Assembly: GCF_900112135.1 (NCBI RefSeq)
Contig: NZ_FOLC01000003.1
Coordinates: 186,001 to 250,000 of the forward strand
Direction: 5' to 3'
Origin: Collimonas sp. OK412
Lineage (GTDB): Bacteria; Pseudomonadota; Gammaproteobacteria; Burkholderiales; Burkholderiaceae_D
Length of the DNA: 64,000 nt
The translations under genes and the position numbers were made by a program. The notes below the pieces were generated by a model. It had not been told where the DNA came from. It did not search any database and was given only the letters and a program-made list of their open reading frames with translations. Positions 20,901 to 43,075 of this stretch are shown here, piece after piece (position 1 is the first letter of the stretch; every line of letters begins with the position of its first letter).

Positions 20901-22420
20901 GGCGCAACTGCAGCCTGCTTTTCAGCCGGCTGGCAAACAATCGTGAACCAGAATGTAGCGCCTTGGCCCGGCGCACTGACCACTCCGATCCCGCCTCCCA
21001 TGAGCTCCACCAGCTGCTTGCAAATCGCCAGGCCGAGACCGGTCCCGCCGTATTGGCGAGCGGTGGCGCTGTCGGCCTGGGCAAAAGAGTCGAATACATG
21101 GAGCGCCGCATCCTGGTCCATGCCAATGCCGGTGTCGTTCACCTCTATCCTCAGGCCGAAGTGTTCGCCGCTGTCCTGACTGCGGGAAATGCGGACAGCC
21201 ACCTCGCCGTGTCCGGTAAATTTCAAGGCGTTTCCCACCAGGTTGGTGAGAACCTGCCGCAAGCGCATCGAGTCGCCTTTGATCAGATCCGGAACGTCGG
21301 CTGCCAGTAGATAACCAAGGTCCAGTTCTTTTTCCCGGGCCTGCTTGGCGAACAGATCGAGGACTTCTTCCACCAGTTTGCGCAAGTTGAAATCGATTTC
21401 TTCCAATATCAGCTTGTTGGCCTCTATCTTGGAGAAATCGAGGACATCGTTGATCAAGTCAATTAGCGTATGGGCCGAACTCCAGGCCACTTCGACGCAT
21501 TCCATTTGCGGCTTGGTGAGCCGCATTTCCCTTAGCATGTCCAGCATTCCCACCACGCCGCTCAAGGGCGTGCGCACTTCATGGCTCACCGTCGCGGCAA
21601 ACTGGGCCTTCATCATTGCTGCGTGCAATGCCTGGTCGCGCGACTGCTTCAGCTCGAGCTCACGCTCTTCCAGTACTGCCATCATTTTATTGAAGGCTTT
21701 GGCCATGTCTATGATGTCGCGCGGCCCCTCGCGCGCTGCGCGCATGCCCGACTCGCCCGACTCGGCGCGCCCCATCAGCTCGGACAGGGCATTCAAAGGC
21801 CGGATCAGATTGCGCGCCAAAAGGCGCATGATTCCCAGCAAGATAAGAGCAAAGGAAAGCGTAATGGCCAGATTGACCATCAGCAAGGAGAGCACCAGGT
21901 GATTCATGGTTCCCTTGCCAAGCACGATATACACATACCCAAGGAGCTGCGGCTTGCTCTCCTGCAGCTCGAACGGCGACGTTGCTGCATGGCCTTGATA
22001 GACCGGTGCGCCGAAACGCCATTCCTTATCGTTTTCCTGTTCCAGCATGGCCCTGGTCGGAGCGATGCCAGGCTGCGGCCCTTGAATCGGCCCGGCTATC
22101 TTGCCTGCCTTGGTTTCGAACAGCAGAACTTTGTTAGCGGTATCGGTAATCTCCACCTGGAGCACGTCAGGAAACGCAAGCGTGGTAGCAACCTCCTCAC
22201 GCACATTGTCAGCGGAATGATAAAGCAGAGCCAGGGTGCTTTGACGCGCCAGGTTTTCTGCAATATGCAGCCCTTGCTCAATCAGGTAACCCCGCACGCT
22301 GCGATTGGTTTGCCAGGAATTCATCAAGGACGAAAACAACGCCAGGCCCAGGATCGAGATGGTGACAATCGCCATCAGCTGACGGCGAAATCCGGTGCGG
22401 CGTAAGTAGGATTGCAACAT
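17966..22420 (-). CDS. Giant hybrid sensor kinase fused to GGDEF and EAL domains
   Basis: This protein has 1484 residues from the ATG at 22420; two earlier in-frame starts (ATG at 22453, TTG at 22534) are possible. It has TM1 at about 14-34, a periplasmic sensor region, TM2 at about 172-198 and HAMP. HisKA follows with His280 (HEVRTP), then HATPase with GTGLGLAICKQ. The first receiver is degenerate, the second is intact (Asp707, LILMDCNMPEMDG), and an HPt (AHAIKGSSGNLGA) and a third receiver (VILMDAVMPVMDG) follow. It ends in GGDEF (intact GGDEF with RIVD inhibitory site) and EAL ([21 protein letters not shown]). A phosphorelay and both making and breaking of c-di-GMP are thus combined. It is the last gene of the operon with the binding protein and receptor, which probably supply its signal. 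Confidence 0.93.
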   Translation of the reverse strand: MLQSYLRRTGFRRQLMAIVTISILGLALFSSLMNSWQTNRSVRGYLIEQGLHIAENLARQSTLALLYHSADNVREEVATTLAFPDVLQVEITDTANKVLLFETKAGKIAGPIQGPQPGIAPTRAMLEQENDKEWRFGAPVYQGHAATSPFELQESKPQLLGYVYIVLGKGTMNHLVLSLLMVNLAITLSFALILLGIMRLLARNLIRPLNALSELMGRAESGESGMRAAREGPRDIIDMAKAFNKMMAVLEERELELKQSRDQALHAAMMKAQFAATVSHEVRTPLSGVVGMLDMLREMRLTKPQMECVEVAWSSAHTLIDLINDVLDFSKIEANKLILEEIDFNLRKLVEEVLDLFAKQAREKELDLGYLLAADVPDLIKGDSMRLRQVLTNLVGNALKFTGHGEVAVRISRSQDSGEHFGLRIEVNDTGIGMDQDAALHVFDSFAQADSATARQYGGTGLGLAICKQLVELMGGGIGVVSAPGQGATFWFTIVCQPAEKQAAVAPEPDLQGMQVLIAAKSEIVRRFLMQSLASHGMQCRIAYSAAEAREELERAAKTPYALIITECTQAEGEEADLLRYIRAAPALATARLLLLQHYGAAKDAQFKGVDAYLDKPLRLQRLLEAIRQPRPDRQSGAAEILAAQLPGTLPAKAKQYRVLVVDDNRTNQVVATGMLVMSDCFCECVDNGWAAIEAVQRSHFDLILMDCNMPEMDGYEVTARIRNIEEPGLRHTPIVAMTANTQSGDVEKCLAAGMDDYLAKPITLIELRHKLEQWLIRATGRRTKESETASMAANPIETEASPLDRTVFDKLQEILGPSLQQAVTPYLEDMPLNLEQLEQAIGQKDTDAIRSLAHAIKGSSGNLGATNMTQLAKKVEELELAGQIDEIRPLLPQLRAAFDDVAALLYSEVSSENYFSTKPTEGSALVLVVDDDRSTRSALRYTLLRDGFRVAEAENGAQALRVLKRIKPDVILMDAVMPVMDGFTACARMQEIPSRQHIPVLIITGLEDNLSVERAFAAGASDYIPKPIHFAVLPQRVRRIVEANRAERRVRDLAFSDSLTGLPNRAMFFDQLKRSIEQAQRSGNGAAVLFLDLDRFKYVNDTLGHDVGDQLLIAVARRIQRSVRIVDCVARLGGDEFTVVLADVATSDIATLVAQKICQSLAKPFLISGHGIVVSASIGISLYPQDGADVGTLLQHADAAMYRAKKANSGFMFFEASMEYSMSEHLSLESDLREALNRKELEVFYQPQIRCDTGRIVGVEALVRWHHPTRGMLAPKDFIPLAEETDLINIIGAWVMRTACVQLQSWIKSGMPAMRMAVNFSVRQLRSDFTDAVEQLLVETSLPPQLLELEITESTLMENAENNLQALHRLHTLGVRLTIDDFGTGYSSLAYLKRFPVDVVKIDQSFVRDVPHDLDDVAIVKSIIALAHSLRLEVVAEGVENESQLAFLRGNSCDLMQGYYFGKPMAAEQFMHFFMEQESLQRA

Positions 22421-22508
22421 GATGGGCTCGTCAAGATGAGGAAAAAAAGGCATCGCATACCGGCTGGCCACGCGAATTGCATCTGTATTGAATGAACATG
22501 CTCGTACG

Positions 22509-23672
22509 CTAAGGCTCCGGAAAAACAAAATCAAAACTACGCTGCTGCTGATAATCGAGATTTAACCCGACGTGACTGGCGGTGCGCAGATTGACCGCCG
22601 TCAGCACCTCGCGTAGCGGCGACACGCCACGCTTGCGTGATTCTCCTGAAAGTACACCCAAGGCGGAACTGGCCAGGTCGCGCCCCAGCCCCAGGTTGTT
22701 CGGATACAAGGCGAACATGACGCCTTTTTTGACGTGCAGGAAGCTGCTGGAAAAGACCGGCAAACCTCGACTCCAGGCTTCCTTCAGGACCAGCGGCAAG
22801 ATGGTTTCATCATCTACCGTAGTAGTATCCTGAGGCAGCCAGATCGCATCCTGGCGGCTGTCAGCGGTGGCGAAAGCAGCGTCATAGAGGTGCGCCGCCG
22901 AGGCCAGGTCATGGGCTTCGCGGGCGACCAGTTCCAGGCCTTGCGCCCTGGCTGCCTCACGCGCCAGTTTGATCAGCCAGTCGTTATGCTGCGGGTCGTA
23001 GATCACGGTCACCCTTTTTATGCCGGGCAACAGTCTTTTCAATAGTACGAACAGCAGGGCCGGATCCGGCGTCAAACTGATGCCGGTCAGGTTGCGGCTC
23101 TCGTTTTCGGGTACCGACAGCACACCGCCGACCACTACCGCTATCTCCGGCGCCAACCCGGATGTAGCCTTCAATCCTTGGCGCCCCAGCGCTATCACTA
23201 CCTTGACGCTGCCGCGCGCCAATTGTGCGCCAAGGTCGCTGGCATTGGTGTTGGGACCGACGGCGTAAGTGTTTATCGGCACTTTAGCTTGCTCCTGAAT
23301 GCCTTCGATAATCTTGGAAAAGATGCTGCGATAGGGTTCACCGATGTCTGGATAAATGACAGCGATCGCACCTTTGCCATCCATGATCTCCTGTCGCCTT
23401 GGCGCGTCCAGCGCGGCCACTGCGGCGATGATCAGCGGCTGGAGTTCGCTGCGCACGGCGCGCATCTCAGCCGTATTTTCGTACCAGTCCGGCAAGTGGC
23501 TGGCGCCCGCGCGCCGGCCAGGATCCTGGTAGACGCTCCCCGGGGCAGCGTAGCCGAATGTACATGCCAGCAAAAGAAGCAAGCTGGCTTCGATCCGCAA
23601 TACAACCGCACAGGAGACCCTGGGCAGTTGAATCAGCAGGGACGACTCACAGTTTGTGCTGGAACTGTACAT
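22509..23672 (-). CDS. Periplasmic ABC-type substrate-binding protein (PF04392-like)
   Basis: This 387-residue protein has an N-terminal secretion signal (hydrophobic RIEASLLLLLACTFGYAA at about 32-49). Its two-lobed binding fold is recognisable from YPDIGEPYRSIFSKIIEGIQ, VVIALGRQGLKAT, TGISLTPDPALLF and VTVIYDPQHNDWL. This is the ABC_sub_bind family. No permease or ATPase gene is adjacent, so it may serve as a receptor rather than a transporter part. The ATG at 23672 overlaps the end of the TonB receptor by 26 bases; an ATG at 23741 is also in frame. Its stop lies 88 bases before the kinase start chosen here. It probably presents its ligand to that kinase. Confidence 0.8.
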   Translation of the reverse strand: MYSSSTNCESSLLIQLPRVSCAVVLRIEASLLLLLACTFGYAAPGSVYQDPGRRAGASHLPDWYENTAEMRAVRSELQPLIIAAVAALDAPRRQEIMDGKGAIAVIYPDIGEPYRSIFSKIIEGIQEQAKVPINTYAVGPNTNASDLGAQLARGSVKVVIALGRQGLKATSGLAPEIAVVVGGVLSVPENESRNLTGISLTPDPALLFVLLKRLLPGIKRVTVIYDPQHNDWLIKLAREAARAQGLELVAREAHDLASAAHLYDAAFATADSRQDAIWLPQDTTTVDDETILPLVLKEAWSRGLPVFSSSFLHVKKGVMFALYPNNLGLGRDLASSALGVLSGESRKRGVSPLREVLTAVNLRTASHVGLNLDYQQQRSFDFVFPEP

Positions 23673-25758
23673 AGAAGGTACGGCCTGGCAGTGGAAAATC
23701 GAAAGGAATATTTCCTGGAGCGAAACTGGGCTCCCTGGCATCTCGATTGAACACGTTCAGCACCATCGCGCTGACGCTCCAGTTGCCGATCAATTTCTCC
23801 CTGCGCAAATTCAAATCGACGGTGGTGTAATCGGGAATCTGGGGGCGGGTGTCGCCAGGTTGCCGCTTGCGGTCGACTACGCGATTGACGGTGCTGCCAA
23901 ATTGCCATAATGACGCGAAACGCCAGTCAGCGCGGCCGAACCAGCGCTGGCGCGGCGCCAGGCCTGCGTCCTGTCCTGTGGTCTGGTCCGTAGAGTGCTG
24001 CAAGGAATAGCTGCCGGAAAGCCGCAGGTTGCGCGTGGCGTCCCAGGTTGCTTCCAGTTCCAAGCCGCGGCCGGTCTGGTCGCCCGCATTTTGCGCGGTC
24101 GAGCCGGTCGAGGGGTCAGGATTCGGCACAAACTGAATGATGTTGTGCATACGGTAGTAGAACAGGCTCAAGTTTGTTTGCAGCGTCTGGGTAGGCTGCC
24201 ACGTGAACGCCAGCTCGCGTGTATTGATGGTTTCCGGTTCGAGATGGGGATTGCCTATGGTGACCGGATTGTTGATGCTGTATTGCTCGGTGAAGGACGG
24301 TGCGCGGAACGCGCTGCCGTATAAGGCCTTGACGGAAAAATTGTAGGCAGCATCCCAAACCAGCGCCAGGCGCGGATTGACCGTGCTGCCAAAATCGGAA
24401 TAGCGGTCCACCCGCACCCCCGATGTCAGCGTCCAGTCTTTCGCCAAGGTCCATTCGTCCTGCACAAACGCGTAGCTGATTGTGCGTTTGTGCGGGGTCA
24501 GGTATACATCGCTGGTGCCGCTTACGTCGATGACGCTCGTTAGCGGAACGAACTCGACCCCGACCCCGGGAACCGCCACGATCTTGAAATTCTTGCTCTC
24601 GCTGGTCTGATACAGGTTTTCAATCCGATAGCCGGCGCCGAGCCGGATCCGATGCTTGTCAAACCCGGTGTAAAACCCCGACAGGCTGAATTGACTGTCT
24701 CGTTCGGCGTGGCCGGGATTGCCTATGACGCCACTAGGGAAAGATCCTGCGAAAGCTCCCGGCGGGAACAGCACTGTCGGCGGCGACGCCGGCAGTTCGT
24801 TGATATCTTTCACCGACGCCTGCGCAGTGACATCCCAATTGCGGAAAAAATTGGGATTGGAATAGGTCAGGTCGGCATTCCAGCGCTGCGCCCGCACGCG
24901 CGCACTGGGATCGAGGCTGTTGGCCAGGCCGACGCCGGTGCCGGTTTCCTGGTCCTGATAGCCGGCGCGCAGACGCCATAGGTCATAGGCGACATCGACC
25001 TGCATGTCCAGGCTGTTGCGCATCAGCTGCTCGTGCCCAGGGGCTAGCGAGGCCTGCGTCCCGAAAATTTTGTCCAGGCTGGTTTGCGCATCGGCGTCTA
25101 TCGTTTTATTCGCGCCGCTGGTGTGGCCCGCTCCAAGATAGAACGCCACATCCAGCGGCCCCATCTTGCCGCCATGCTGGATCCAGGCTTCGTGCGTATC
25201 GAACGATCCCGCCCGTGCGCCATACGCGGTGCCGTTGATGTCAGCCGCGGTCTTGGTAATGATATTGATGACGCCGGCGAAAGCGTTCGCGCCGTACAGC
25301 GCTGATCCAGGGCCGCGGATGACCTCGATACGGGCTATGTTCTGGATCGGCACACCGCCCCAGGCAAAGTCACGATTACCGAGAAAAGCATCGTTGATGG
25401 GGATGCCGTTCACCAGCATCAATGCCTGCGGATTGTATTGCGTGGTGATGCCGCGGAACGAATAGATTGGATCGTTGTAAAGGCCCGAGTAAGATACGTG
25501 CAAACCTGGCACGCTTTCCAGCGCCTGGTTCATGCTGGTCGCCCCCATGGCCTGGATGTCCTGGGCGGTTATCACCGACGCTACCGCCGGCGCCCGGGAA
25601 ATATCTTGCTGGCTGCCCGTGGCGATGCTGACGAACGCTTTATTCCCGTAGGAAAGCACCAAATCGTCTTCATCGGCATTTTGCTGTGCTGCAGCCGAAG
25701 CGGCGCCCAGGAACAGGATGGCGGCGCACGGAATTTGAGTTTGCCAACGGTTTTTCAT
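23647..25758 (-). CDS. TonB-dependent outer membrane receptor
   Basis: This 703-residue outer membrane transporter has a signal peptide (MKNRWQTQIP, cleavage near ASAAAQ) and a plug domain with DISRAPAVASVITAQDI, QALMLVNGIPIND and IEVIRGPGSALYGANAFAGVINIITK. A 22-strand barrel ends near FYVQFQHKL. The ATG at 25758 has GAGG upstream; a longer in-frame start exists. No siderophore synthesis genes are nearby. The receptor is flanked by a small-molecule enzyme operon upstream and a binding protein plus sensor kinase downstream. It may therefore import the signal molecule or its precursor. The C-terminus ends in Leu instead of the usual Phe. Confidence 0.92.
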   Translation of the reverse strand: MKNRWQTQIPCAAILFLGAASAAAQQNADEDDLVLSYGNKAFVSIATGSQQDISRAPAVASVITAQDIQAMGATSMNQALESVPGLHVSYSGLYNDPIYSFRGITTQYNPQALMLVNGIPINDAFLGNRDFAWGGVPIQNIARIEVIRGPGSALYGANAFAGVINIITKTAADINGTAYGARAGSFDTHEAWIQHGGKMGPLDVAFYLGAGHTSGANKTIDADAQTSLDKIFGTQASLAPGHEQLMRNSLDMQVDVAYDLWRLRAGYQDQETGTGVGLANSLDPSARVRAQRWNADLTYSNPNFFRNWDVTAQASVKDINELPASPPTVLFPPGAFAGSFPSGVIGNPGHAERDSQFSLSGFYTGFDKHRIRLGAGYRIENLYQTSESKNFKIVAVPGVGVEFVPLTSVIDVSGTSDVYLTPHKRTISYAFVQDEWTLAKDWTLTSGVRVDRYSDFGSTVNPRLALVWDAAYNFSVKALYGSAFRAPSFTEQYSINNPVTIGNPHLEPETINTRELAFTWQPTQTLQTNLSLFYYRMHNIIQFVPNPDPSTGSTAQNAGDQTGRGLELEATWDATRNLRLSGSYSLQHSTDQTTGQDAGLAPRQRWFGRADWRFASLWQFGSTVNRVVDRKRQPGDTRPQIPDYTTVDLNLRREKLIGNWSVSAMVLNVFNRDAREPSFAPGNIPFDFPLPGRTFYVQFQHKL

Positions 25759-25847
25759 TGCTGCCTCATTCGATGGAACCCAGATATCACAGGATGTCGA
25801 GCCGCTGCTCCTCATCCTCCCGCATCAGCTGCCTTATTCTTGCTGTC

Positions 25848-30116: not shown

Positions 30117-30721
30117 ACCAAATCCCTCTCCTGATGGCAGGAAGATTGCTGCGGTACGGCAATGTGCACCGCTCATCCTCACAGGGCCAATGGGCAAGAA
30201 AAAAATTCCCACATGGAAATTAAGTGTAGTCTTGTCTTAACAAATCACAAAGCAAAGAATCCGGTCGACGCACTTCAACAACGATCCAGACCAAGAAGAT
30301 ATGCAATGCCGGCATCCAGCAGTCAGCCGCTGAAGATAAATATGCAAAAAACCACAGGCGGCAAATGCTGATCAGGTCTTGATCGTTTGATGCCTAATAT
30401 TGCCAGCTTATTAATATATTGCCACCTATCAATATTGACAGCTGTTTTTGTGACATCTAAAGCATTAATGTTAAAAAAGCGGTTAATGGCTATTGAACTG
30501 CCCAGCCGTCGGACGCAACCTGCTATTCACCAGGGGAAAATCGGCCACGGTCATTGCCATGCCATATGTGTGTGGGGGCTATATGTCGATCATGAACTGC
30601 CTTGTTATTTTTCTGGCCAACTATAGACAAAAGGCAACTATTGCCATGTCTGCATGGACAGCCTGATGTCAATTTTCTCGTCCATATTTACAGAGCTGAC
30701 AACGGATTTAGGAGGCAACTG
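30117..30721. other. Divergent intergenic region of the island (605 bases)
   Basis: The stretch is AT-rich compared with the flanks and separates the minus-strand enzyme operon from the plus-strand binding-protein operon. It contains no convincing gene; a 79-codon frame at 30387 has no ribosome binding site or family resemblance. The promoters of both modules must lie here. No riboswitch was recognised. Confidence 0.6.
30435..30463 (+). promoter_or_regulatory. Weak candidate promoter of the binding-protein operon
   Basis: A perfect TTGACA (30435-30440) is followed after 17 bases by TAAAGC, a poor -10 match. It would give a leader of about 250 bases before the start at 30722. Confidence 0.3.
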
Positions 30722-31876
30722 GTGGTAAGGCAATCGCTTATCTTTTTCATGTTTAGCACGCTGCTTGCAGGCCAGTTATTCGCTGCGGATCCGGGAATTT
30801 CCGACACTGAAATTCGATTGGGCATGGTTAATGCGCAATCCGGAGCGGCCGCCGGACTGGGCCAAGGCATGCGGATTGGCGCCATGGCGGTTTTCAACGA
30901 CGTCAACACCAATGGCGGGATTCACGGGCGACAGATAAATTTACTGGTGGATGACGATGCCTACGATCCCGACAAGGCAATCGATGCAACATTGAAAATG
31001 ATCGACCAGGAAAATGTTTTTTCTTTGTTCGGATATGTCGGCACGCCAACCGCCAACGCCGTTCTGCCTATCATCAAGGACACCAAGATCCCCCTCGTGG
31101 GTATCTTCAGCGGCGCGATGCTGTTACGCAAGCCAGTCATTCCTGAAGTGATCAATCTGCGCGCCAGCTATGGCGATGAGACGGAAATCCTGGTTGATCA
31201 TTTCATCAAGGACAGAGGCGCCAAACGTTTTGCCGTGTTTTACCAAGACGATGGATTCGGCCTGTCGGTCCTGGCCGGAACCGAGACGGCATTAAAACGG
31301 CGCGGCATTGAAATCGTGGCAAAGGCGACTTTCCAACGCGGGACGACTGCAATCCAGGCTGGGCTTGCCACATTAATAGAGAGCAAGCCCGACGTTGTGA
31401 TCATGGTCGGACCCTATACGCCGCTGTCGACATTTATCAAAAATGCGAAAACCGAAGGGTTGAAAGCCAGTTTAGCGACCGTGTCGTTCGTCGGTACCGA
31501 CAATCTGGTCAGGCTGGTCGGCGCCGACGGCGATGGAGTCGTCATATCGCAAGTGGTCCCGTTCCCGGAAAATCATGACTTGCCGCTCGCCAGGGAATGC
31601 GCGGTACTCATCAAGAAATATGCTCCGGAAGAAAAACTCGGATTTGTCAATTTCGAAGGGTGTATCAGCGCCAAGGCCATGGTCATCGCCTTGGACAGAA
31701 CCGGGCCGGCATTGACACGGCCGGGACTGATCCACGCCTTCGAATCGATCAAGGGGCTGGATATCGGCGGCCTGCAATTCAATCTCGGCCCGGATAATCA
31801 TCAAGCATCCAATTCAGTATTCTTGACCAGAATATCGCAAGGGAAAATAACCCCGATCGACACTATTCCAAAGTAG
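30722..31876 (+). CDS. Periplasmic Leu/Ile/Val-type binding protein, probable sensor partner
   Basis: This 384-residue type I periplasmic binding protein starts with GTG at 30722, six bases after a GGAGG. That gives a clean signal peptide ([20 protein letters not shown]). The fold is recognisable from [57 protein letters not shown] and [13 protein letters not shown]. No permease or ATPase genes follow; instead a sensor kinase begins 56 bases after its stop. This arrangement recalls TorT-TorS and LuxP-LuxQ, where the binding protein reports ligand to the kinase. The ligand may be an amino acid or other small molecule, undetermined. Confidence 0.87.
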
Positions 31877-31932
31877 CACGCAAGACAGCCGGCTTGAAAA
31901 AACGAACCGTGCGTTGCAAAAGTGAGGCCTGG

Positions 31933-34900
31933 GTGAAAATCAGAACAAAGCTGTTTGCGAGTACAGGATTGCTGCTATTAGGAGTGATCGCGATCGCGAC
32001 GGCTAGCCTGATCGCCTTGAACGGCGTTTCTTCGAGCGTATACAGGCTTACCAAGGAATCGCTGCCCCTGCAATTGAAAACAGGCGAACTGCAACGCACC
32101 ATCGAAAGAACGTCAGACAATTTTTTCAAACTCGGCATGTCGACAGATCGTCAGCAGCAAGAACAGTCTTCATCGGCAATCGCCAGCAATATCAAGTCGA
32201 TCAGAACTCTTACGAGCAATATCCAAGAAATGGATCAGCAAGGGATTGACATCAATCCTGCATTATATGAGGCGATGCAGGGAAAGATGAATCTTGCGGT
32301 CGGCGACCGTCTACGGGATACCGAAATATTCAAGGACGAGGCGCACAACATCAAAGAGACGCTAAAGAACATAGAGCGCTCGATAAGCACCATCAAGACC
32401 AGTATTGGCACGCTGAATACCCAGGCCGAAACAGTGGTCGCCGCGGCGCAGCAGGCAAGTCTTTCGTCGAACAAGATTATCAAAGAATTCTCCGGTATCA
32501 GAATGCGCGTGAAAGACATGATCATCATCATCGATGAGATTGAAACAGTAAAGAACCGTTATCGGCTTACCCCTTTGAAAGAACGCATGAAAGCTGCGGA
32601 AAATGCGATTAAAGGGCTTGCTTATGCGCAGGACGGCACGACAAAAATGAAGGAAATAGGCGACGCCATTTCGGCATTGACTGAACGTGTCCTCAACAAT
32701 AAAGGCGGATTGATCGCGTTGCGCTCCAACACACTGTCGAACGCTGCCTCAGAGGCCGACTATTTTTCGGAAAAAGCAAACATCATTCAGGAATTTGAAT
32801 CCATTGATGCGAAAGTATCCGAGGCTATCGATCCGATTGAAATGCAACTGGTCCGCGACCGCCACAAACTTGAAGAAGCCGTTGCATTCTTGCAAAAGGC
32901 GACGCGTGTGAAAGACGCTGGAAATGCCATCACCATTGATGTCAACGAGTTGAATAGCGCAATCGGAGGAGTGATCCTGAGCGAATCGGAGTCTGAATTA
33001 AAAACGAGCGTGACCGCTGCAAGGATCCAGGCAAAGGAATTGAAAGAAAGTGACTCGTTGCTTAGAAAGGAGCTGTTGGGCACGCAGCAGAACAAATACA
33101 TTGCCGATGCCAATGCCATCAACCGGCTCATCCAGGTACTCAATGAAGGATCTGAAAGAATCATCACGGCAAAGATGCGCGTGCTTGCAAGTGACGCTGC
33201 GTTACGCGAAATCGTCGGACAGGTAAATGCCGTCTCGATGAAAAAACTGGCTTACAGCGACTTGCAAGTGGAAAACATCGGCAAGCAACAGCAAGGCGTC
33301 GTATCGAATTTGCAAAGTTCGGTAAATAGATCGTTTGTCGTGATTGTGCTCGCAACATTATTGCTGGCTTTCGCCGGCATCGCTGTCAATACCAAGATTG
33401 GAACGTCGATCGCGCACCCGCTTTCCAGCCTGTCCGCCACGATCGAACGCATACGCGGCGGGAAGGATCTTTCTTTGCGGGTGCCTGGGCACGGCACGGG
33501 CGAAATAGGAATACTGATCAACGGTTTTAACAGCATGCTCGAGAATATTGAGCGGCGTGACGCGCAGCTCAAGCACGCGACAGCGGAAGCAAAGGCCGGC
33601 AACCAGGCGAAGTCGGAGTTTTTAGCCAAGATGAGCCACGAAATCCGCACTCCCATGAACGGCGTGCTGGGCATGACTGAATTATTGTTGCGCACCAGGC
33701 TGGATGCCAAGCAGCGACGCTTCGTCGACTCGGTTTACCGCTCTGGCGAGTCGCTTCTGACAGTGATCGACGACATTCTCGATTTTTCAAAAATCGAAGC
33801 AGGCAAGCTGACACTGGAGAAAATCGGATTCAACTTGAGACAGACGATCGACGATGTCGTTGTCCTGCTTGCTCATGGCGCTCAACGCAAGGGCCTTGAT
33901 CTCATCCTTCTTATGGCAGAGGACCTGCCGCAAAATGTGCGAGGCGACTCGGTTCGGGTGCGCCAAATCATCACGAATCTGATCAACAATGCCATCAAGT
34001 TCACTGATCGTGGAGAAATTGTGGTCGATGTGCGCTGCGACGATCGCGACCGTGTCTGTTTTTCGATCTCTGACACTGGCATAGGCATAGCACCGGAGGT
34101 GGCCGCGCATCTTTTTCAGCCCTTCCAGCAAGCGGATAGTTCAACTTCACGGAAGTACGGCGGCACCGGACTAGGTCTTGTCATCACCAAGCAGCTCGTC
34201 GAAATGATGGGAGGAACAATCGAATTGAAGAGTTCGCCGGGTCAGGGATCCATTTTTTCGGTCACCTTGCTCCTGGAGCGGCTGGCCGAGGAAATATCGT
34301 CCCACGCTCCTGCCGTACGGACATCCCTGGCCGGATTGAGGATGCTGATTGTCGATGACAATGCGACCGACCGCAGTATTCTCCTGGAGCATGCGGGCGA
34401 ATGGAATATGGATGCCGTGAGCGTATCGAGCGGCGCGGAAGCTTTGGATCAGCTACGCGCCGCCGCAGCCGGCGACAAGCATTTTGACGTAGCGATCATC
34501 GACGTTCGCATGCCTGTCATGGACGGCATTGCCCTGGTACACGCGATCCAAGCCGATACTTCTCTCTTTCAGCCGAAGATTGTCATGCTCACTTCGTTCG
34601 ACACCGTCGACGACATCAATCTTGCCCGCAAGCTGGGCATCGAACACTGTTTTAACAAACCGGTACGTGGAACCGATCTCTACGACTGCATCATCGCCGC
34701 AACCGGAGCCGGCACCCCAACTACCGCGCAGCCCATGATAAAGGCGATCGATCCTGCATCAGCTGCGGCAACCAATCTGCTCCCCGGGATGACGGTTCGA
34801 GTGCTGCTGGCTGAGGACAACGCGATCAATCAGGAAATCGCCACAGCAATGCTTGAAGATACCGGATACCACGTCACCGCAGCCGAGAACGGTCGCGTAG

Positions 34901-35583
34901 TGCTATCCATGCTTGCGAGCAGCGATTTTGATGTCATATTGATGGATTGCCAAATGCCGGAAATGGACGGCTTCGAAGCGACCCGCGAGCTACGCCGGCG
35001 AGAAAACGAAACCGGCGGCCATCGCATTCCCGTTATTGCACTGACGGCAAATGCCATTGGCGGCGATAGGGAACGCTGCCTTGAAGCGGGTATGGACGAC
35101 TATATCTCGAAGCCGTTCCGCCGCGACATATTATTAAAGACACTCGCGCACTGGACTCGAGATGAAAGAAAGGCCCCAAGCTCCACTCCGATCGCCGACG
35201 AGATTCCAGGCATATCAGCCACGCCGGAAGCCGTCACCATCGACCCCAAGGCGCTGCAAGTCTTGCGCGCACTGCAAAAGCCGGGCCGCCCCGACGTACT
35301 CACCCGGGTTGTCGACATGTTCAACCTCGATGCTCCCCGGTTGCTTTCCGCAATGCGTAACGCCATTGCGGCGAATGATGCTGACGCTTTGCAGCGTGCT
35401 GCACATACGCTGAAATCGACTAGTGCAAATGTCGGCGCCATGCTGCTTGCGGCGTACTGCCGTGAAATCGAACAACTAGCGCGCTCTGCGGATGTGGCGG
35501 CAACCGCCGCACCATTTGATGGAGCAATGGAAGAACTTGACCGCGTCCTTGTGGCGCTCGCTCTGGAAAGGGTTGCCGCATGA
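31933..35583 (+). CDS. TorS-like hybrid histidine kinase with long helical periplasmic domain
   Basis: This protein has 1216 residues from the GTG at 31933 (GAGG five bases upstream); a TTG at 31894 is the alternative. It has TM1 at about 6-28, then about 430 residues that look wholly helical. TM2 at about 465-487 and HAMP come next. HisKA has His569 ([11 protein letters not shown]), followed by HATPase ([12 protein letters not shown]). Two receivers carry Asp857 ([11 protein letters not shown]) and Asp1005 ([11 protein letters not shown]), and HPt carries His1158 (AAHTLKSTS). This order is that of TorS/ArcB-type phosphorelays. The helical sensor lies beside a binding-protein gene, suggesting indirect ligand sensing. 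The last four bases overlap the next gene (ATGA). Confidence 0.92.
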
Positions 35584-38123
35584 CTAAGGAAACTAAAGAC
35601 GTTACCGTGGTCCTCATCGTTGACGACGATGCGATGACACGCATGCTTGTTGTAGAAGCGCTCGAACCTGAGGGTTTCAAGGTGGAAGAAGCCGCAAGCG
35701 GCATCGAAGGCATCGAGGCGTTTCAACGCCTCAAGCCTGACATCATTCTATTAGACGTCAGCATGCCCGGAATGGACGGATTTGCTTGCTGCAAGCGCAT
35801 ACGTGGACTGCTTGACGGCAAGCGCATACCGATTGTCGTCCTTACCGGAAACGACGATGACGAGTCGATTACGCAGGCATTTGAGGCTGGGGCTACCGAC
35901 TTTCTTTCCAAGCCCATGCGCTGGAAATTGCTGCCGCATCGCGTGCGATATCTGTTACGGGCCAGCGAAGCCCTGAAGGACCTGGCGCGCAGCGAGGCGA
36001 GCCTGACGTATGCCCAGGGATTGGCCCATGTGGGAAACTGGGAATATAGCCCGGAAAGCGCCGACGGTTACTGGTCCCCGGAAGTCTACAGGATCCTGGG
36101 ACTCGACGAGAGTAATAGTCCGCCACGGTTTGAATCGCTGCTGCAAGTGGCGCCCAACGATGAGCAGCCCAAGCTGATTTATTCCTTCATGAATTTACGC
36201 ACTGAAGGCATCAGCTATAGCCTGGAGCACCGTATTACACGCCCCAACGGAGACGAGAGGATTGTGCTCCAACAGGCGGAAGCGTTGCGCGAGCAAGGTC
36301 GGATCCTGACACTCCGCGGCACTTTGCAAGACATCACTGAACGTAAGATGCACGAGGCGCGGATCGAATACCTGGCCAACCATGATGCGCTTACAGACCT
36401 GCCCAACCGCAACTTGTTAAGCGATCGCATTACGCAGTCAATCGCTCATGCGAACCGTGCCGGCCAGCACATGGCTGTGATGTTTCTCGATTTGGATCGA
36501 TTTAAATTTGTTAACGACAATTTCGGCCACCCCGCAGGCGACAATTTGTTGAAGGCGGTTGCTGCCAGGCTCAAAACAGCGACGCGCGAAGAGGATACCG
36601 TAGCGCGAATAGGAGGCGATGAATTCGTCATCATGCTGCCGGCTTTCAGCGCCTCCGATGATACGGACACGGCAGTGCGAAGAGTGCTGGATGCGTTTTC
36701 CTCGCCGTTCCTGGTCGGCGATCATACGCTGCATGTCACGACCAGTATCGGAGTGAGTATTTATCCAGAGGATGGCGGCAATAGCGAAACATTGCTGAAA
36801 ACGGCAGATGCGGCGTTATACAGTGCGAAAGAAAAGGGCCGGAATTGCTTCCAGCTCTATACCCGTGAAATGGGCGTTCAGGTAGAGGAACAGGCGGAGC
36901 TCGAAAATGCGCTGCGCCAAGCCGTCGTACGGCATGAATTCGAGCTCTTCTACCAACCCAAGGTCGATCTTAAAAGTGGACAAGTCAATGGCGTTGAAGC
37001 GCTGCTGCGCTGGCGTCGCCCGGGGGTCGGCTTGATCCCGCCGGACAGCTTTATCCCCTTGGCGGAAGAGACGGGATTGATTGTGCCCTTGGGCGAGTGG
37101 GTATTGAGAACGGCTTGCGTCCAGGCAAAGGCCTGGCAAGTTGCAGGGCATCTTGAGCTGAGCATGGCAGTCAACGTATCAGCGCGGCAATTTCGACAAC
37201 AGAATATTGTCGAACTCGTGCGTAGCGCTCTGCTTGATAGCGGCCTCGCCGCTGAATATCTGGAACTGGAACTGACAGAAAGCGTGCTCATGCGGGATCG
37301 ACAGACCGCGGTAAAAACACTGCGTCAGCTCAAAGAGATAGGCGTGGTGTTAACGCTGGACGATTTCGGCACCGGATATTCGAGCCTCTCCTATCTCAAG
37401 GAATTCCCCTTCGATGTAGTGAAGATCGATAAGTCGTTCATCACCGACGTGACCAACAGCGTCGATGGCGCCTCGCTCACCAAATCTATCATTGCCATGG
37501 CCGAGTCCCTCCATATGACGACAGTTGCCGAAGGGGTGGAGACAGAAGGCCAATTGGGTTTTTTAAGCAGCAACCGGTGCGACACCATGCAAGGGTATTA
37601 TTTCAGCCGCCCATTGCCGATAGAAGAAATGGATGCGTTGCTTAGCGCAGGAACACATCTCCTTGATGACAACCAACGCAGCGAGCAACTCAAGCGCACC
37701 CTGCTGCTGGTCTGCAACGATGAGGAAATACAGGCCTCCCTCAATCGTCTTTTCCTGCCGGACGGCTATCAAATTTTCAGCACGAACAGTCCGCTTGAAG
37801 CGTTGGAAATGCTAGCGATCTATCCTGTGGGCGTCATTGTATCTGACCTGGGTAAACCCGAAATACCTGGAATCGATCCCTTAAGCCGGGTCAGGGGACT
37901 CTATCCGCATATAGTCCGCATCATGCTTTCCGGTTACTCCGAAATACAGCTGGCGACCGGCGCAATTAACGAGGCAGCCGTTTATAAATTCCTGACGAAG
38001 CCGTGGGATGACCGATTGCTGCGGCAGCATGTTGGAGAGTCGTTTCGTCGCTACGAAGCACGCACGATGGGTAAAAATCCGAAACAGGACACCAAGCCCG
38101 TCAGCGCACCCGCTTTGAAATAA
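35580..38123 (+). CDS. REC-PAS-GGDEF-EAL-REC bifunctional c-di-GMP protein
   Basis: This 847-residue cytoplasmic response protein begins with a receiver carrying Asp59 ([13 protein letters not shown]). It continues with a PAS domain (about 145-255), GGDEF (residues 345-349, with inhibitory site REED five residues before) and EAL (473-475, [15 protein letters not shown]). A second, poorly conserved receiver ends it (about 690-800, [10 protein letters not shown]). Both the cyclase and phosphodiesterase motifs are intact. Its start overlaps the preceding kinase by four bases, so it is the likely phosphoryl acceptor. An ATPase with c-di-GMP-binding-type repeats follows, suggesting a local signal-to-machine circuit. 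Confidence 0.93.
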
Positions 38124-38205
38124 GGAATAGCAACTCGCCAAGCGTTACGCCAAACGATAATTTTTCTTGGAATGCGACAGTTTTTGAATCAAAACGGAGA
38201 AGTCC

Positions 38206-40593
38206 ATGGATACCGATTTCGGCTGGCCACTGCCGCCACACTTCGAATCAATCTCTGCAACCTCGGCTGCGGACAATGGCAAGGCGCCATGCATCGTTAC
38301 CATGAACGACGGTAACCGGAAGGTCGGAAATCTGCTGGGTTTTGACCTGGAAACCTCATCGATAGAATTTCATCCGGAACGCGCCGGCGGCAACTTGCGT
38401 ATCGGCTTTTCCAATTTCAAAAGTATCCGCTTAACGTCGCCGATAGAGTTAAAGAAAATGGAATTGCCTTCAACGGTCGAAACACAAGGAGATTTGCCCA
38501 TCCCGATTCGGCAAAAATGCGTGATTACGTTCAAGGACGGAGAACATCTGCTATCCGAAACGATCGGTTACGTTCCGCGTGAAATCGGACTCTTTCTATT
38601 TCTTGTTGGCGTCGGCAACAACGTTTTGCGCTGGTTTATTCCAACAGAAGCAATTGCCAATTATCAAATTGGCGACAAGCTTGGCCAGATGCTGATAGAC
38701 ACCAGAATGGCGTCGGCGGACGCTGTCGATGCGGGCTTGAAGAAGCAAGGCCAGCTGCGGGAATCCAAGCTGGGCGAATATCTGCAGCTGGAAAGCCTTG
38801 TCTCAGAAGCGGAAGTGGAAAAGGCGTTGCAAAAACAAAGATCGATGCCTCACCTCAAGCTTGGGGAAGCATTGGTTCAAGAGAATTTGATCACCGTTGA
38901 ACAGCTGGCGCAAGCGCTAAAGAAGCAACATGAAGACAGAAAGCTGCACCTGGGAGAAATCCTTGTCGGCATGGGTTTTGTCACCAAAGAAAGCATTAAA
39001 AGAATATTGGCGAAAAAGCTTGGCATCCCCTTCGTTACCCTGCCCCAGTTCCAGTTTGACTTGAATTTAACCAAGGTAGTGCCTGCCGACCTGGCACGAA
39101 AATACATTGTCATGCCGCTATACCGAACCCAGTCGCGCATGGTGGTGGCAATGGAAGATCCGCTGTCGTCGGAAGCGTTGAAGGCATTATCATTTTTTTC
39201 CAAGCTGACGATTGATCCCGTCATGGCGTCGGAGACTGACCTGGCCGAGGTCATTCCAAGATTTTATGGCCGGCAAGGGGAACGTCAGGATATCGCAGAG
39301 TTTGTTTCTAAAATGGATGATGGCGGCAGCGCCGAACCAAGCCAGGCCGGCAATGAGATCATTACCGAATCCGACAATGCCACGGTTCGCCTGGTCAACA
39401 AGATCATCCTCGATGCATTCGAACAAGGCGCCTCCGACATCCATATCGAAGTCATGAAAGGCAATGAGCCCACCCGGGTCCGCTTTCGCAAGGACGGCAT
39501 CATGGTCGATTATTCGAACATTCCGGCAAACTACCGTAATGCCTTGGTTTCCCGCCTTAAGATCATGAGCCGCCTCGACATTTCCGAGAAGCGCCGCTCA
39601 CAAGATGGGAAACTGAATTTTGAGCAGTTTGGCCCTGCGAAAATTGAACTGCGCGTCGTCACCATGCCGACCACGGAAGGCCTGGAAGATATCGTGATGC
39701 GCATACTTGCAGCGCCAAAGGCCTTATCCCTGGACGCACTAGGCCTGTCTACCGCGGTGCTGGAAGGACTCAAGAAACTGGCCCTGAAACCTCATGGCCT
39801 GCTATTTGTCTGCGGCCCGACCGGGTCAGGTAAAACCACAACTCTGCATTCCTTGCTCAGTTATATCAATACCAGCGAACGCAAAATATGGACAGTCGAG
39901 GATCCTATAGAAATTACCCAGAAAGGCCTGCGGCAAGTACAGGTTCACGCAAAAATCGACCTGACATTCGCCGCCGTATTGCGGAGCTTTTTGCGAGCCG
40001 ATCCCGATGTCATCATGGTGGGAGAAACAAGGGACCCGGAAACGGCCCGGACCGTCATTGAAGCTTCACTAACCGGGCATCTGGTATTTTCCACATTGCA
40101 TACCAACAGTGCGGTCGAAAGCGTCGTCAGGTTATTGGATCTCGGCCTGGATCCGTTTAATTTTGCAGATGCGCTGCTAGGCGTAGTCGGTCAACGGCTC
40201 ACGCGTAAACTGTGTACAAGCTGCCGCCAACGTTATTCCGCCACCGCCGAGCAAGTCAAGATGCTTGCTTACGAATATTGCCTGGAAACCGGACTCCGGG
40301 AAGACGACGTAGCAGCGCAATGGCAAAAACAATATGGCGACGACGGCACTGTTCTCACGTTATACAAGGCCGTGGGATGCGAAAAATGTGACAAGAGCGG
40401 TTATAAAGGCAGATTGGGCGTACACGAATTACTGGTCAACAGTCCCGCCATCAAGAAAAAAATCCATGCCAAAGCGAATGTCCCGGAAATATTGCAAACC
40501 GCCATTGGGGAAGGCATGCGTACCTTGAAACAGGACGGGATCGATAAAATATTTCAAGGCCTGACCGACTGGGAACAAGTAAGAATGCTCTAA
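38206..40593 (+). CDS. Orphan PilB/GspE-type ATPase with four MshEN-like repeats
   Basis: This 795-residue secretion/type IV pilus extension-type ATPase starts with two copies of a small beta-rich unit (about 26-80 and 95-150, each opening CIVT/CVIT..DG). Four 24-residue MshEN-like repeats with exact 30-residue spacing follow at 158, 188, 218 and 248 (KLGQML.., KLGEYL.., KLGEAL.., HLGEIL..). The ATPase core has Walker A GPTGSGKT (537-544), VGETRDPE, TGHLVFSTLHTNS, and a zinc tetracysteine (CTSC, CEKC). MshEN domains bind c-di-GMP, but here Arg1 is Lys/His and only the fourth repeat keeps the glycine. No pilin or platform genes are nearby. Confidence 0.92.
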   Translation: MDTDFGWPLPPHFESISATSAADNGKAPCIVTMNDGNRKVGNLLGFDLETSSIEFHPERAGGNLRIGFSNFKSIRLTSPIELKKMELPSTVETQGDLPIPIRQKCVITFKDGEHLLSETIGYVPREIGLFLFLVGVGNNVLRWFIPTEAIANYQIGDKLGQMLIDTRMASADAVDAGLKKQGQLRESKLGEYLQLESLVSEAEVEKALQKQRSMPHLKLGEALVQENLITVEQLAQALKKQHEDRKLHLGEILVGMGFVTKESIKRILAKKLGIPFVTLPQFQFDLNLTKVVPADLARKYIVMPLYRTQSRMVVAMEDPLSSEALKALSFFSKLTIDPVMASETDLAEVIPRFYGRQGERQDIAEFVSKMDDGGSAEPSQAGNEIITESDNATVRLVNKIILDAFEQGASDIHIEVMKGNEPTRVRFRKDGIMVDYSNIPANYRNALVSRLKIMSRLDISEKRRSQDGKLNFEQFGPAKIELRVVTMPTTEGLEDIVMRILAAPKALSLDALGLSTAVLEGLKKLALKPHGLLFVCGPTGSGKTTTLHSLLSYINTSERKIWTVEDPIEITQKGLRQVQVHAKIDLTFAAVLRSFLRADPDVIMVGETRDPETARTVIEASLTGHLVFSTLHTNSAVESVVRLLDLGLDPFNFADALLGVVGQRLTRKLCTSCRQRYSATAEQVKMLAYEYCLETGLREDDVAAQWQKQYGDDGTVLTLYKAVGCEKCDKSGYKGRLGVHELLVNSPAIKKKIHAKANVPEILQTAIGEGMRTLKQDGIDKIFQGLTDWEQVRML

Positions 40594-41464: not shown

Positions 41465-43075
41465 ATGAACGGTCTTCGAGACACATTGGCGCGGCAAACA
41501 GAACTAGTGACAAAACGGATACCAATTACGTGGTTAGCCTTTATTTTCGTCGTTCTTGTCTGCCTATCCTTGGTATTCATTGATGGCTGGCGAAGCTGGA
41601 CCGCCCGTAATATCCAGTTGCGCGAGATGGGAATTTCCACGTCTAACATGACGCGAGCCATAGCACAGCACGCCGACGATACGATTAAAGCAGCCGACAC
41701 CACGCTGGTGGGCCTCGTTGAACGGGTACAAACGGACGGTACCGGTCCCGAAGCCCTGCGGCGCATGCATGAACTGCTGGTGCGGCGGGTTATAGAATTG
41801 CCTCAGCTGCAAGGCTTGTTCGTCTATGACGAAAAAGGAAATTGGCTGGTTAACGCATTACCGGCCATGCCATCCAATGTTAACAATTCGGATCGCGATT
41901 ATTTCATCTACCACAGCACCCACGTCGATCCGGAACCGTACATTGGACTGCCGATCCGAAGCCGTTCAACGGGAGCATGGATCATTACCGTTTCGCGCAG
42001 GATCGAACATGCAGACGGCAGCTTCGCCGGCGTTGCGCTGGCCACCATCAACATGGATTATTTCAACAAATTCTACAAAAATTTCGATATCGGCCAGCAC
42101 GGCGTGATCGTGCTTGGGCTAAACAACGGCATCATGCTGACCCGCCGGCCGCTTTTGGCCGATACCAATGGAAAAAATATTGCAAACATCCCTCTGTTTC
42201 GTGACAACGTAGCGAAGAAGGCCAGCGGCACGATTGTTATCGTTTCTGCGCTAGACAGCGTGAGGCGCCTGAATAGCTTTCGACACTTGGAACACTATCC
42301 CTTGTTCGTCGCCACGGCGTTGTCGGAAGATGAAATCCTCGCAGATTGGCTCACGGATACCTATTTGCACTCCACCGGCGTGGGGATACTGCTCATCGTA
42401 TTGAGCATGCTGGGATTCCACCTCGTCGGCCAAATCAAGCAACGCCTGAATGCCGAAGCAGAACTTGTACGAGCACGGGATGCATTGGAAACACTCAACC
42501 AGACGCTCGAAAGGCTCGCATTGCAAGACGGTCTCACGGGACTCGCAAATCGTCGTCATTTTGACCTCGCGCTGGACAAGGAATTCAGCCGCGCGGTGCG
42601 AGAGGCAAGTTCATTGGCGCTCATCATGATCGATGTTGACTGCTTCAAACAATATAACGACATATACGGTCACGCAGCAGGCGATGAATGCTTGCGAAAA
42701 ATCAGCCAGGTAATCAAGACCAATCAGAACCGGCCTGGCGACGTCGCTGCCCGCTACGGCGGGGAAGAGCTTGGCGTTCTGCTTCCCGGTACTGACGTAC
42801 GCGGAGCAATGACCATTGCAGAAAAAATCCGTTTGGAAATCCACAATCTTGGTATCGAGCATACGGGCAATTCGGCCGGCGTGGTCACCGTCAGCGCAGG
42901 CGTTGATGCGTTTATCCCCATTCAGAACCTGGACAATCCGTTAGAGCTGGTACTGGCGGCCGACAAGGCCCTCTACGCGGCAAAATCCAGCGGGCGTGAT
43001 CGCGTTTGCGAAAACCAAAGCGCTACTGGCCCCCATCGATCCGCCCCCGAGCAGGAGCCATCTACCATCCTGTAA
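41465..43075 (+). CDS. dCache-GGDEF membrane diguanylate cyclase
   Basis: This 536-residue protein has TM1 at about 18-40, an extracytoplasmic double-Cache-like sensor (about 50-290, with LQGLFVYDEKGNWLV and DRDYFIYH) and TM2 at about 300-320. A short coiled coil (about 328-348) leads to a C-terminal cyclase domain. The active-site motif reads GGEEL rather than GGDEF/GGEEF; the inhibitory site RPGD stands five residues before it, as in regulated cyclases. The rest of the domain (LTGLANRRHFD, DVDCFKQYND, ADKALYAAK) is canonical, so it is probably active. It is the last gene of the island before tRNA-Pro. Confidence 0.92.
   Translation: MNGLRDTLARQTELVTKRIPITWLAFIFVVLVCLSLVFIDGWRSWTARNIQLREMGISTSNMTRAIAQHADDTIKAADTTLVGLVERVQTDGTGPEALRRMHELLVRRVIELPQLQGLFVYDEKGNWLVNALPAMPSNVNNSDRDYFIYHSTHVDPEPYIGLPIRSRSTGAWIITVSRRIEHADGSFAGVALATINMDYFNKFYKNFDIGQHGVIVLGLNNGIMLTRRPLLADTNGKNIANIPLFRDNVAKKASGTIVIVSALDSVRRLNSFRHLEHYPLFVATALSEDEILADWLTDTYLHSTGVGILLIVLSMLGFHLVGQIKQRLNAEAELVRARDALETLNQTLERLALQDGLTGLANRRHFDLALDKEFSRAVREASSLALIMIDVDCFKQYNDIYGHAAGDECLRKISQVIKTNQNRPGDVAARYGGEELGVLLPGTDVRGAMTIAEKIRLEIHNLGIEHTGNSAGVVTVSAGVDAFIPIQNLDNPLELVLAADKALYAAKSSGRDRVCENQSATGPHRSAPEQEPSTIL

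Follow-up and report, generated by a model that had tools for sequence, protein, structure and literature searches.

The window described here is a 64-kb stretch (64,000 nt) of contig C27 in the 5.46 Mb genome of Collimonas sp. OK412, in which four open frames on the + strand (30602/30722-31876, 31894/31933-35583, 35580-38123 and 38206-40593) were analysed. Assignment of domains to the gene products using Pfam with curated cut-offs, with NCBIfam also used, agreed with the four genes placed there by a first-pass annotation: a solute-binding protein (SBP), a hybrid sensor kinase, a response regulator with the GGDEF and EAL domains of cyclic di-GMP (c-di-GMP) turnover, and a PilB/GspE-type ATPase with MshEN-like repeats. 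We refer to the first three genes, the SBP, hybrid kinase and Rec-PAS-GGDEF-EAL-Rec regulator (Rec, receiver), as the triad. The GTG start of the SBP gene at 30722 is conserved among its relatives, and GTG 31933, likewise conserved in relatives, is most likely the true start of the kinase gene rather than TTG 31894. The features of the locus are as follows:

30722..31876, + strand, solute-binding protein (SBP), periplasmic, LivK-like type I fold, GTG start (Peripla_BP_6, E 5e-60)
31933..35583, + strand, hybrid sensor kinase with a transmembrane (TM) segment, ~430-aa sensor, second TM segment, HAMP, HisKA (H569), HATPase_c, Rec1 (D857), Rec2 (D1005) and HPt (H1158)
32038..33330, + strand, periplasmic sensor of the kinase, the first ~285 residues very likely TorS-type, followed by ~145 extra residues on the C-terminal side
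35580..38123, + strand, response regulator with Rec (D59), PAS (PAS_3), GGDEF with an I-site RxxD, EAL and Rec
30475..38169, strand not applicable, triad-holding segment, delimited by blastn against locus L092 of genome G149 and by the junction sequence, absent from the G149 locus, which has 36 bp there
38206..40593, + strand, PilB/GspE-type ATPase (Pfam T2SSE and MshEN)
38677..39018, + strand, four tandem MshEN-type 24-residue repeats in the ATPase, with key letters at positions 1, 2, 3, 10, 17, 21 and 24

An alignment of five SBP sequences gave two peptide patterns, which were used in one scan of GTDB species genomes; 132 stretches matched, representing at least 80 loci, and 80 loci were taken and their neighbourhoods read by tblastn with domain queries. 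The SBP identity was ≥58% in 27 of these loci, with the next best at 45%, and in all 27 the same type of sensor domain was located directly downstream of the SBP. Complete triads were present in 22 of the close loci, spanning Collimonas, Pararobbsia, Pinirhizobacter, Trinickia, Burkholderia, Janthinobacterium, Massilia and Pseudoduganella (hereafter the named triads), one further locus was cut by the contig end (L113), and in the other four the output was a chemoreceptor (HAMP-MCPsignal; L096 Nevskia, L099 Geobacteraceae, L101 Nitrospirae and L118 Sericytochromatia), followed by CheB in L101. The four-base overlap between the kinase and regulator genes, pointed out in the first-pass annotation, is real and recurs in 17 of the 22 named triads. 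Distances between copies are correlated between the SBP and the sensor (0.985), which is expected of linked genes and hence weak evidence. Judged from these neighbourhoods, binding protein, hybrid kinase and regulator are a real, travelling unit. Two more distant loci were recorded as well: in an alphaproteobacterial metagenome-assembled genome (L136, 11155-14250), an SBP relative (38% identical) adjoins a TorS-sensor-HAMP-PAS-GGDEF-EAL protein, with a sensor scoring over the PF21689 cut-off (38.2 bits), which would represent binding-protein-to-c-di-GMP logic without a phosphorelay, and the distant SBP locus L127 has a kinase as neighbour.

The nearest solved chain to the SBP is 4kv7 (E 2.5e-57), and a putative signal peptide was judged by eye from the sequence. 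LivK-like proteins are mostly transporter subunits, yet the 64-kb window contains no LivH or LivM matches, and its one LivG/LivF-like match (27-28% identity, at 63.4 kb) is ~31 kb distant from the triad; the earlier description of an adjacent type I binding protein without transporter genes holds. Within the flanking DNA examined, LivH/LivM was found in 0/27 close SBP loci versus 9/53 lower-identity loci, while a LivF/LivG-like ABC ATPase match (24-30% identity) was present somewhere in the flanks of 4/27 close loci. In LivJ/LivK, the Glu of the GPEG motif binds the amino group of the ligand, and the six signalling SBPs that we aligned with LivJ and LivK lack it, reading SFVG or SFAG at the motif; the window SBP has SFVG, which speaks against simple amino acids as its ligand.

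Hydropathy windows placed TM1 of the kinase within residues 3-36 and TM2 at 467-485, leaving a periplasmic part of about 430-437 residues, close to the ~430 residues given in the first-pass annotation. The 435-residue periplasmic slice contains 4 Pro, 20 Gly, no Trp and no Cys, and the sensor alignment displayed a moment of 14.2 at 100 degrees (200 shuffles, mean 9.4, standard deviation 0.75), compared to 9.3 at 170 degrees (shuffles 9.4), and by this periodicity and composition the region is helical, as had been proposed. An internal repeat is weak at best (residues 1-145 vs 289-431, E 0.0047). With the exception of HAMP, no Pfam family exceeded its cut-off in the sensors of the six proteins scanned. 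A profile of 23 sensors was then compared using hhalign with a combined TorS-type profile (27 PF21689 loci, E. coli TorS, L136 and nine gemmatimonad-type sensors), which gave E 7.3e-9 and probability 95.8 with 279 aligned columns running in the same order (5-288 against 15-312), versus E 0.15 and 0.19 for reversed-profile controls. Comparison with the 27 PF21689 loci alone gave E 3.8e-7 (reversed 0.041 and 0.081), while column shuffles of a smaller TorS profile gave E 0.74-0.9, a Tar-like sensor control 0.17, and a profile built from 14 HBM domains, themselves long helical sensors, 0.011 (reversed HBM 0.021). A TorS-type sensor domain extended by ~145 residues is therefore very likely present in the kinase, as far as profile comparison can tell. 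The kinase itself was rejected as a TorS orthologue, being below cut-off for both PF21689 (TorS_sensor_domain) and the TorS equivalog TIGR02956 (456.5 bits vs 676.5). In wide genome samples searched for the sensor, matches came from the Collimonas sp. OK412 genome alone (at least 1/397 and at least 1/399, lower bounds since at most four candidates per genome were scored); a control search recovered 13 of 14 chosen genomes, the missed one, L136, having the shorter TorS type.

The kinase carries two receivers ahead of its HPt domain, and the regulator contains the receiver, GGDEF and EAL domains originally listed, as well as a PAS domain and another receiver at its C-terminus, both of which had been left out. 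We checked the expected functional residues over 25 aligned triads, comprising the 22 named triads and those of the window, G147 and G130. H569 (HisKA), D1005 (Rec2) and H1158 (HPt) of the kinase are kept in 25/25 copies, as are D59, GGDEF, RxxD, EAL and the additional EAL-domain positions E564, D594, D595, K615 and E651 of the regulator, while the Asp of the C-terminal receiver is present in 22/25 (three gaps). D857 of Rec1 is found in 21/25 copies with gaps in the other four, which are Janthinobacterium copies without Rec1, and Rec1 hence seems dispensable for the relay. The best 19-residue hydropathy window of the regulator scored 1.46, under the 1.6 used for TM segments. With cyclase, I-site and phosphodiesterase residues intact, the regulator is bifunctional-looking, and the part of the original proposal that led from the kinase to a GGDEF-EAL regulator is retained.

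The motor end of that proposal fared differently. The ATPase consists of an N-terminal part of ~150 residues, four MshEN-type repeats, the remaining MshEN domain and a T2SSE core, and scored above the cut-offs for MshEN (PF05157, 64.1 bits vs 23.1) and for the NF053729 c-di-GMP motif (68.9 bits vs 38). Of the solved structures, 6f8l, a Thermus PilF, matches it best (423 bits). It was rejected as a PilB orthologue on the NCBIfam equivalog cut-offs, scoring 511 vs 675.65 for the PilB equivalog TIGR02538 and 462.3 vs 630.25 for TIGR02533, and no PilC/GspF platform gene was found on contig C27, with the 10 PF00482 matches of the genome all on other contigs. In a 25-row alignment including the window sequence (six of 31 clustered homologues, each <700 residues, were dropped, and L063 was kept with its catalytic part in pieces), CGPTGSGKTTTLH was invariant, and GEtRD and sT.HTnSA were invariant or nearly so; these conserved motifs correspond to Walker A, Walker B and the His-box.

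The MshEN-type repeats begin at ATPase residues 158, 188, 218 and 248 with spacers of 6 residues, and their key letters are KLGRVLQ, KLGSVLQ, KLGNLLQ and HLGGILK. The c-di-GMP-binding motif given in PMC5013675 reads RLGxx(L/V/I)(L/V/I)xxG(L/V/I)(L/V/I)xxxxLxxxLxxQ, present twice with a 5-residue spacer, and the full pair (R1, L2, G3, L17, L21, Q24 and 5-residue spacer) was not found in the repeats of the window ATPase. Over the 25 ATPase sequences, position 1 of the third repeat was Arg 18 times, Lys six times and Met once, whereas the fourth repeat had Arg in 0/25 and Gln in 0/25, with Lys at the Gln position in 25/25; the window repeats (K, K, K, H at position 1) are no better at the key letters than those of other homologues. 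A regular expression for the motif matched 0/3 of the other PilB/GspE-type ATPases of the genome. Changes of conserved hydrophobic residues in MshE cost >10-fold, and changes of R9, D12 or Q32 about 5-fold or less (PMC5013675); GSPII-A of Thermus PilF, with small deviations, is reported not to bind c-di-GMP, and XpsE likewise shows that deviations can end binding (PMC5013675). The loss of several contact residues thus weakens the claim that the ATPase binds c-di-GMP, while the modest cost of polar-contact changes in MshE leaves room for weak binding, and we lean towards weak or no binding.

The N-terminal ~150 residues of the ATPase (window 38206-38670) have no Pfam name, and their two halves resemble each other weakly (E 0.003, reversed 0.62). 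An N-terminal part of this kind, together with MshEN and without an ATPase match, was also seen in frames of 452-465 residues in L047, L048, L049, L056 and L057; in L047 and L049 these frames are accompanied by a Rec-GGDEF gene, and the L047 protein matches DUF4388. Still smaller frames of 182-190 residues, with little beyond an MshEN domain that shares 56-59% identity with the ATPase one, are present in L051 (8344-8916) and L052 (8393-8941), with a GGDEF-EAL gene ~2 kb away in L051.

A search of 145 family genomes with the N-terminal 358 residues of the ATPase gave homologues at E ≤1e-80 in 22, the OK412 genome included. We read the neighbourhoods in 20 of the other 21 genomes (G086, where the gene is on a 7-kb contig, was left out) and in G147 and G151, and a triad adjoined the ATPase in the window, G147 and G151 alone, representing three Collimonas species. 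Seen from the other side, the ATPase directly follows just one of the 22 named triads (C. humicola, G151), an adjacency count for which presence elsewhere in the genomes was not searched, and 21 of the 22 have >3 kb downstream of the regulator (L102 has just 283 bp). Among 15 Collimonas genomes, the SBP is present in 4 and the ATPase in 8. The SBP is absent from G149, G061, G143 and G145, and the ATPase lacks an adjoining triad in G149, G061 and G143. In G149 the ATPase and a divergent thiamine pyrophosphate (TPP)-enzyme gene are contiguous and triad-free, and blastn showed a locus 7.7 kb shorter, with window positions 30421-30474 and 38170 onward matching L092 1373-1426 and 1463 onward; the last ~36 bp of the 82-bp gap between regulator and ATPase, which lie on the same strand, match the region upstream of the G149 ATPase. 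In G061 the TPP gene and ATPase are separated by ~600 unmatched bases, and in G130 a stretch of 14.7 kb that includes the TPP block separates the end of the triad from the ATPase, which lies on the opposite strand. In an unrooted FastTree tree of concatenated triad proteins, the window triad grouped with Pararobbsia and Pinirhizobacter (support 1.000) and the G130 triad was placed on the Massilia/Janthinobacterium side (0.997). This tree and the triad-free G149 locus indicate that the triad was gained horizontally beside a resident ATPase in one Collimonas clade; loss of the triad in G149 would be possible if that locus were taken by itself, but would leave the tree unaccounted for. The ATPase looks like an independently conserved neighbour that is separable from the triad, and as the end of a pathway it is unsupported. 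Five Collimonas loci (window, G147, G151, G061 and G130) have a dCache-GGDEF cyclase gene (window 41465-43075, +) close to the ATPase, and G143 has a different GGDEF gene there; the cyclase is a steadier c-di-GMP neighbour of the ATPase than the triad.

We regard it as probable that the first three genes form a self-contained, horizontally moving system which turns an external ligand into a change in c-di-GMP, with the ATPase as an independent neighbour. A single route dedicated to linking a periplasmic ligand with a pilus or secretion motor under c-di-GMP control, as first proposed, would account for the common strand and small gaps, including the 82 bp ahead of the ATPase, for MshEN and NF053729 scores above cut-off, and for the gene order kept in G147 and G151, and all four SBP-bearing Collimonas genomes have the ATPase; it is nevertheless highly improbable, given adjacency in one named triad out of 22, ATPase genes without the triad, the opposite strands in G130, the fourth repeat without Arg and Gln throughout and the lack of a platform gene on the contig. 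A milder version, in which an inserted triad and a resident ATPase of separate evolutionary origins are now co-transcribed and cooperate in this Collimonas clade, fits the match of the end of the gap to the G149 upstream region, the persistence of the arrangement in three species, and the gap itself, in which no + strand promoter-like site was found by a scan that gave no excess of sites over shuffles. Against such a recent capture, which we consider unlikely, the key letters of the window repeats are not improved over other homologues, and triad-less ATPase genes must presumably have a promoter of their own. The SBP could also serve a transporter encoded elsewhere in the genome, with the kinase sensing the ligand directly and the neighbourhood reflecting regulatory convenience, as the usual role of LivK-like proteins and the 9/53 more distant relatives near LivH/LivM would allow; the pairing of 27/27 close relatives with the sensor and of 0/27 with LivH/LivM in the flanking DNA examined, chemoreceptor loci included, and the replaced Glu make this very unlikely, and a transporter-dedicated binding protein was rejected.

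Several observations weigh against the three-gene system with a separate ATPase. The relation to TorS is seen by profiles only, at 11% identity; the single E. coli TorS sequence did not match the sensor in hhalign (E 0.21), and PF21689 was below threshold in the kinase, its sensor and the whole OK412 genome. The pairing counts are conditioned on SBP similarity, as all 80 loci were found via the two SBP peptide patterns, the four chemoreceptor loci are all metagenome-assembled genomes in which binning errors are possible, and the L096 receptor frame is broken by a stop after 184 codons. The G130 triad belongs to another lineage and yet is only 14.7 kb from the ATPase, and the co-occurrence of SBP and ATPase in Collimonas weakly favours the path proposed at first. 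Guanine-plus-cytosine (GC) content does not discriminate (triad 0.536, ATPase 0.512, whole window 0.578), and was dropped as evidence for transfer because the ATPase is lower than the triad. Read-through from regulator into ATPase is likely given the 82-bp same-strand gap, making a present-day link conceivable; the numbers of sites in promoter and terminator scans did not clearly exceed those in shuffled sequence (11 vs mean 8.7 and 16 vs 13.4).

A second, different binding-protein/c-di-GMP system is located at window positions 17966-25815 (-), with overlapping frames for a TonB receptor, an ABC_sub_bind solute-binding protein and a 1522-residue protein containing sCache, kinase, HPt, two receivers, GGDEF and EAL, with HAMP under cut-off. 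Homologues of all three genes are present in G061 and G130, and in G130 (L069, 4696-16709) the triad is directly beside a 72% identical homologue of the 1522-residue kinase, so that two differently related triads, of the window and of G130, are found near the same block.

The triad is a variant on known binding-protein/kinase systems, with a c-di-GMP output. The TorT-TorS system of Escherichia coli senses trimethylamine N-oxide (TMAO), and TorS has a receiver and HPt domain. The window system resembles it in combining a periplasmic binding protein with a hybrid kinase that has a helical periplasmic sensor, HAMP, receiver and HPt, in a sensor that profile comparison finds homologous across the entire TorS domain, and in a binding-protein gene beside the kinase gene without permease genes, as torT adjoins torS in E. 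coli. It differs in its LivK-like SBP (Peripla_BP_6), in a sensor of ~430-437 residues compared to the ~306 between the TM segments of E. coli TorS, in the two receivers of the kinase, and in a Rec-PAS-GGDEF-EAL-Rec output instead of the DNA-binding TorR, and no TMAO reductase genes were recognised among the window neighbours scanned. LuxP-LuxQ and XylFII-LytS differ from the window system in sensor folds, binding-protein types and outputs. MbaA, the partner of NspS, is itself the receptor in the membrane, whereas in the window a phosphorelay and a separate GGDEF-EAL regulator stand between. NspS-MbaA, which senses polyamines in Vibrio cholerae, is the nearest functional parallel, since its bifunctional output turns the state of a binding protein into c-di-GMP synthesis or breakdown (PMC8967002). 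PMC6321045 names LuxP-LuxQ and XylFII-LytS as binding-protein-activated sensor kinases, like the window kinase, and both PMC6321045 and PMC9602780 deal with such kinases (TorS, LuxQ, LytS) and with c-di-GMP enzymes. PMC8846402 states that SBP_bac_3 was the sole family of the periplasmic-binding-protein clan to have been investigated in c-di-GMP networks. No description of this combination of SBP, TorS-type kinase and GGDEF-EAL regulator was found in titles or abstract openings among the matches listed from open-licence PMC text. The ATPase shares the T2SSE core and tandem MshEN repeats with PilB/MshE-type ATPases such as MshE of Vibrio cholerae and PilF of Thermus thermophilus, and differs in scoring under the NCBIfam PilB cut-off, in its extra ~150-residue N-terminal part, in a contig without a PilC/GspF gene and in incomplete c-di-GMP motifs.

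Based on these sequence comparisons, the SBP very probably signals the presence of an outside molecule to the membrane kinase, and from there to a c-di-GMP enzyme. By analogy with TorT on TorS, the SBP would dock on the sensor dimer, and its ligand state would set kinase or phosphatase activity; phosphate would then most likely pass from H569 via D1005 (Rec2) and H1158 (HPt) to D59 of the regulator, where phosphorylation would shift the balance of c-di-GMP synthesis and breakdown up or down, probably in the general or a local pool. A more speculative and rather doubtful extension is that the foreign relay and the orphan ATPase form one local circuit, with one transcript, a local c-di-GMP pool and a partly decayed four-repeat MshEN array reading it weakly, and that the SBP and extended TorS-type sensor are a portable ligand-recognition cassette plugged into phosphorelays, chemoreceptors and c-di-GMP output. 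Gene order alone overstated the pathway, as the ATPase is separable, and what is left is a bounded, testable three-gene system linking TorT-TorS-like sensing to c-di-GMP through a phosphorelay. Since the SBP/sensor pair also occurs with chemoreceptors in the four metagenome-derived loci, one ligand screen on one SBP could inform both taxis and c-di-GMP signalling.

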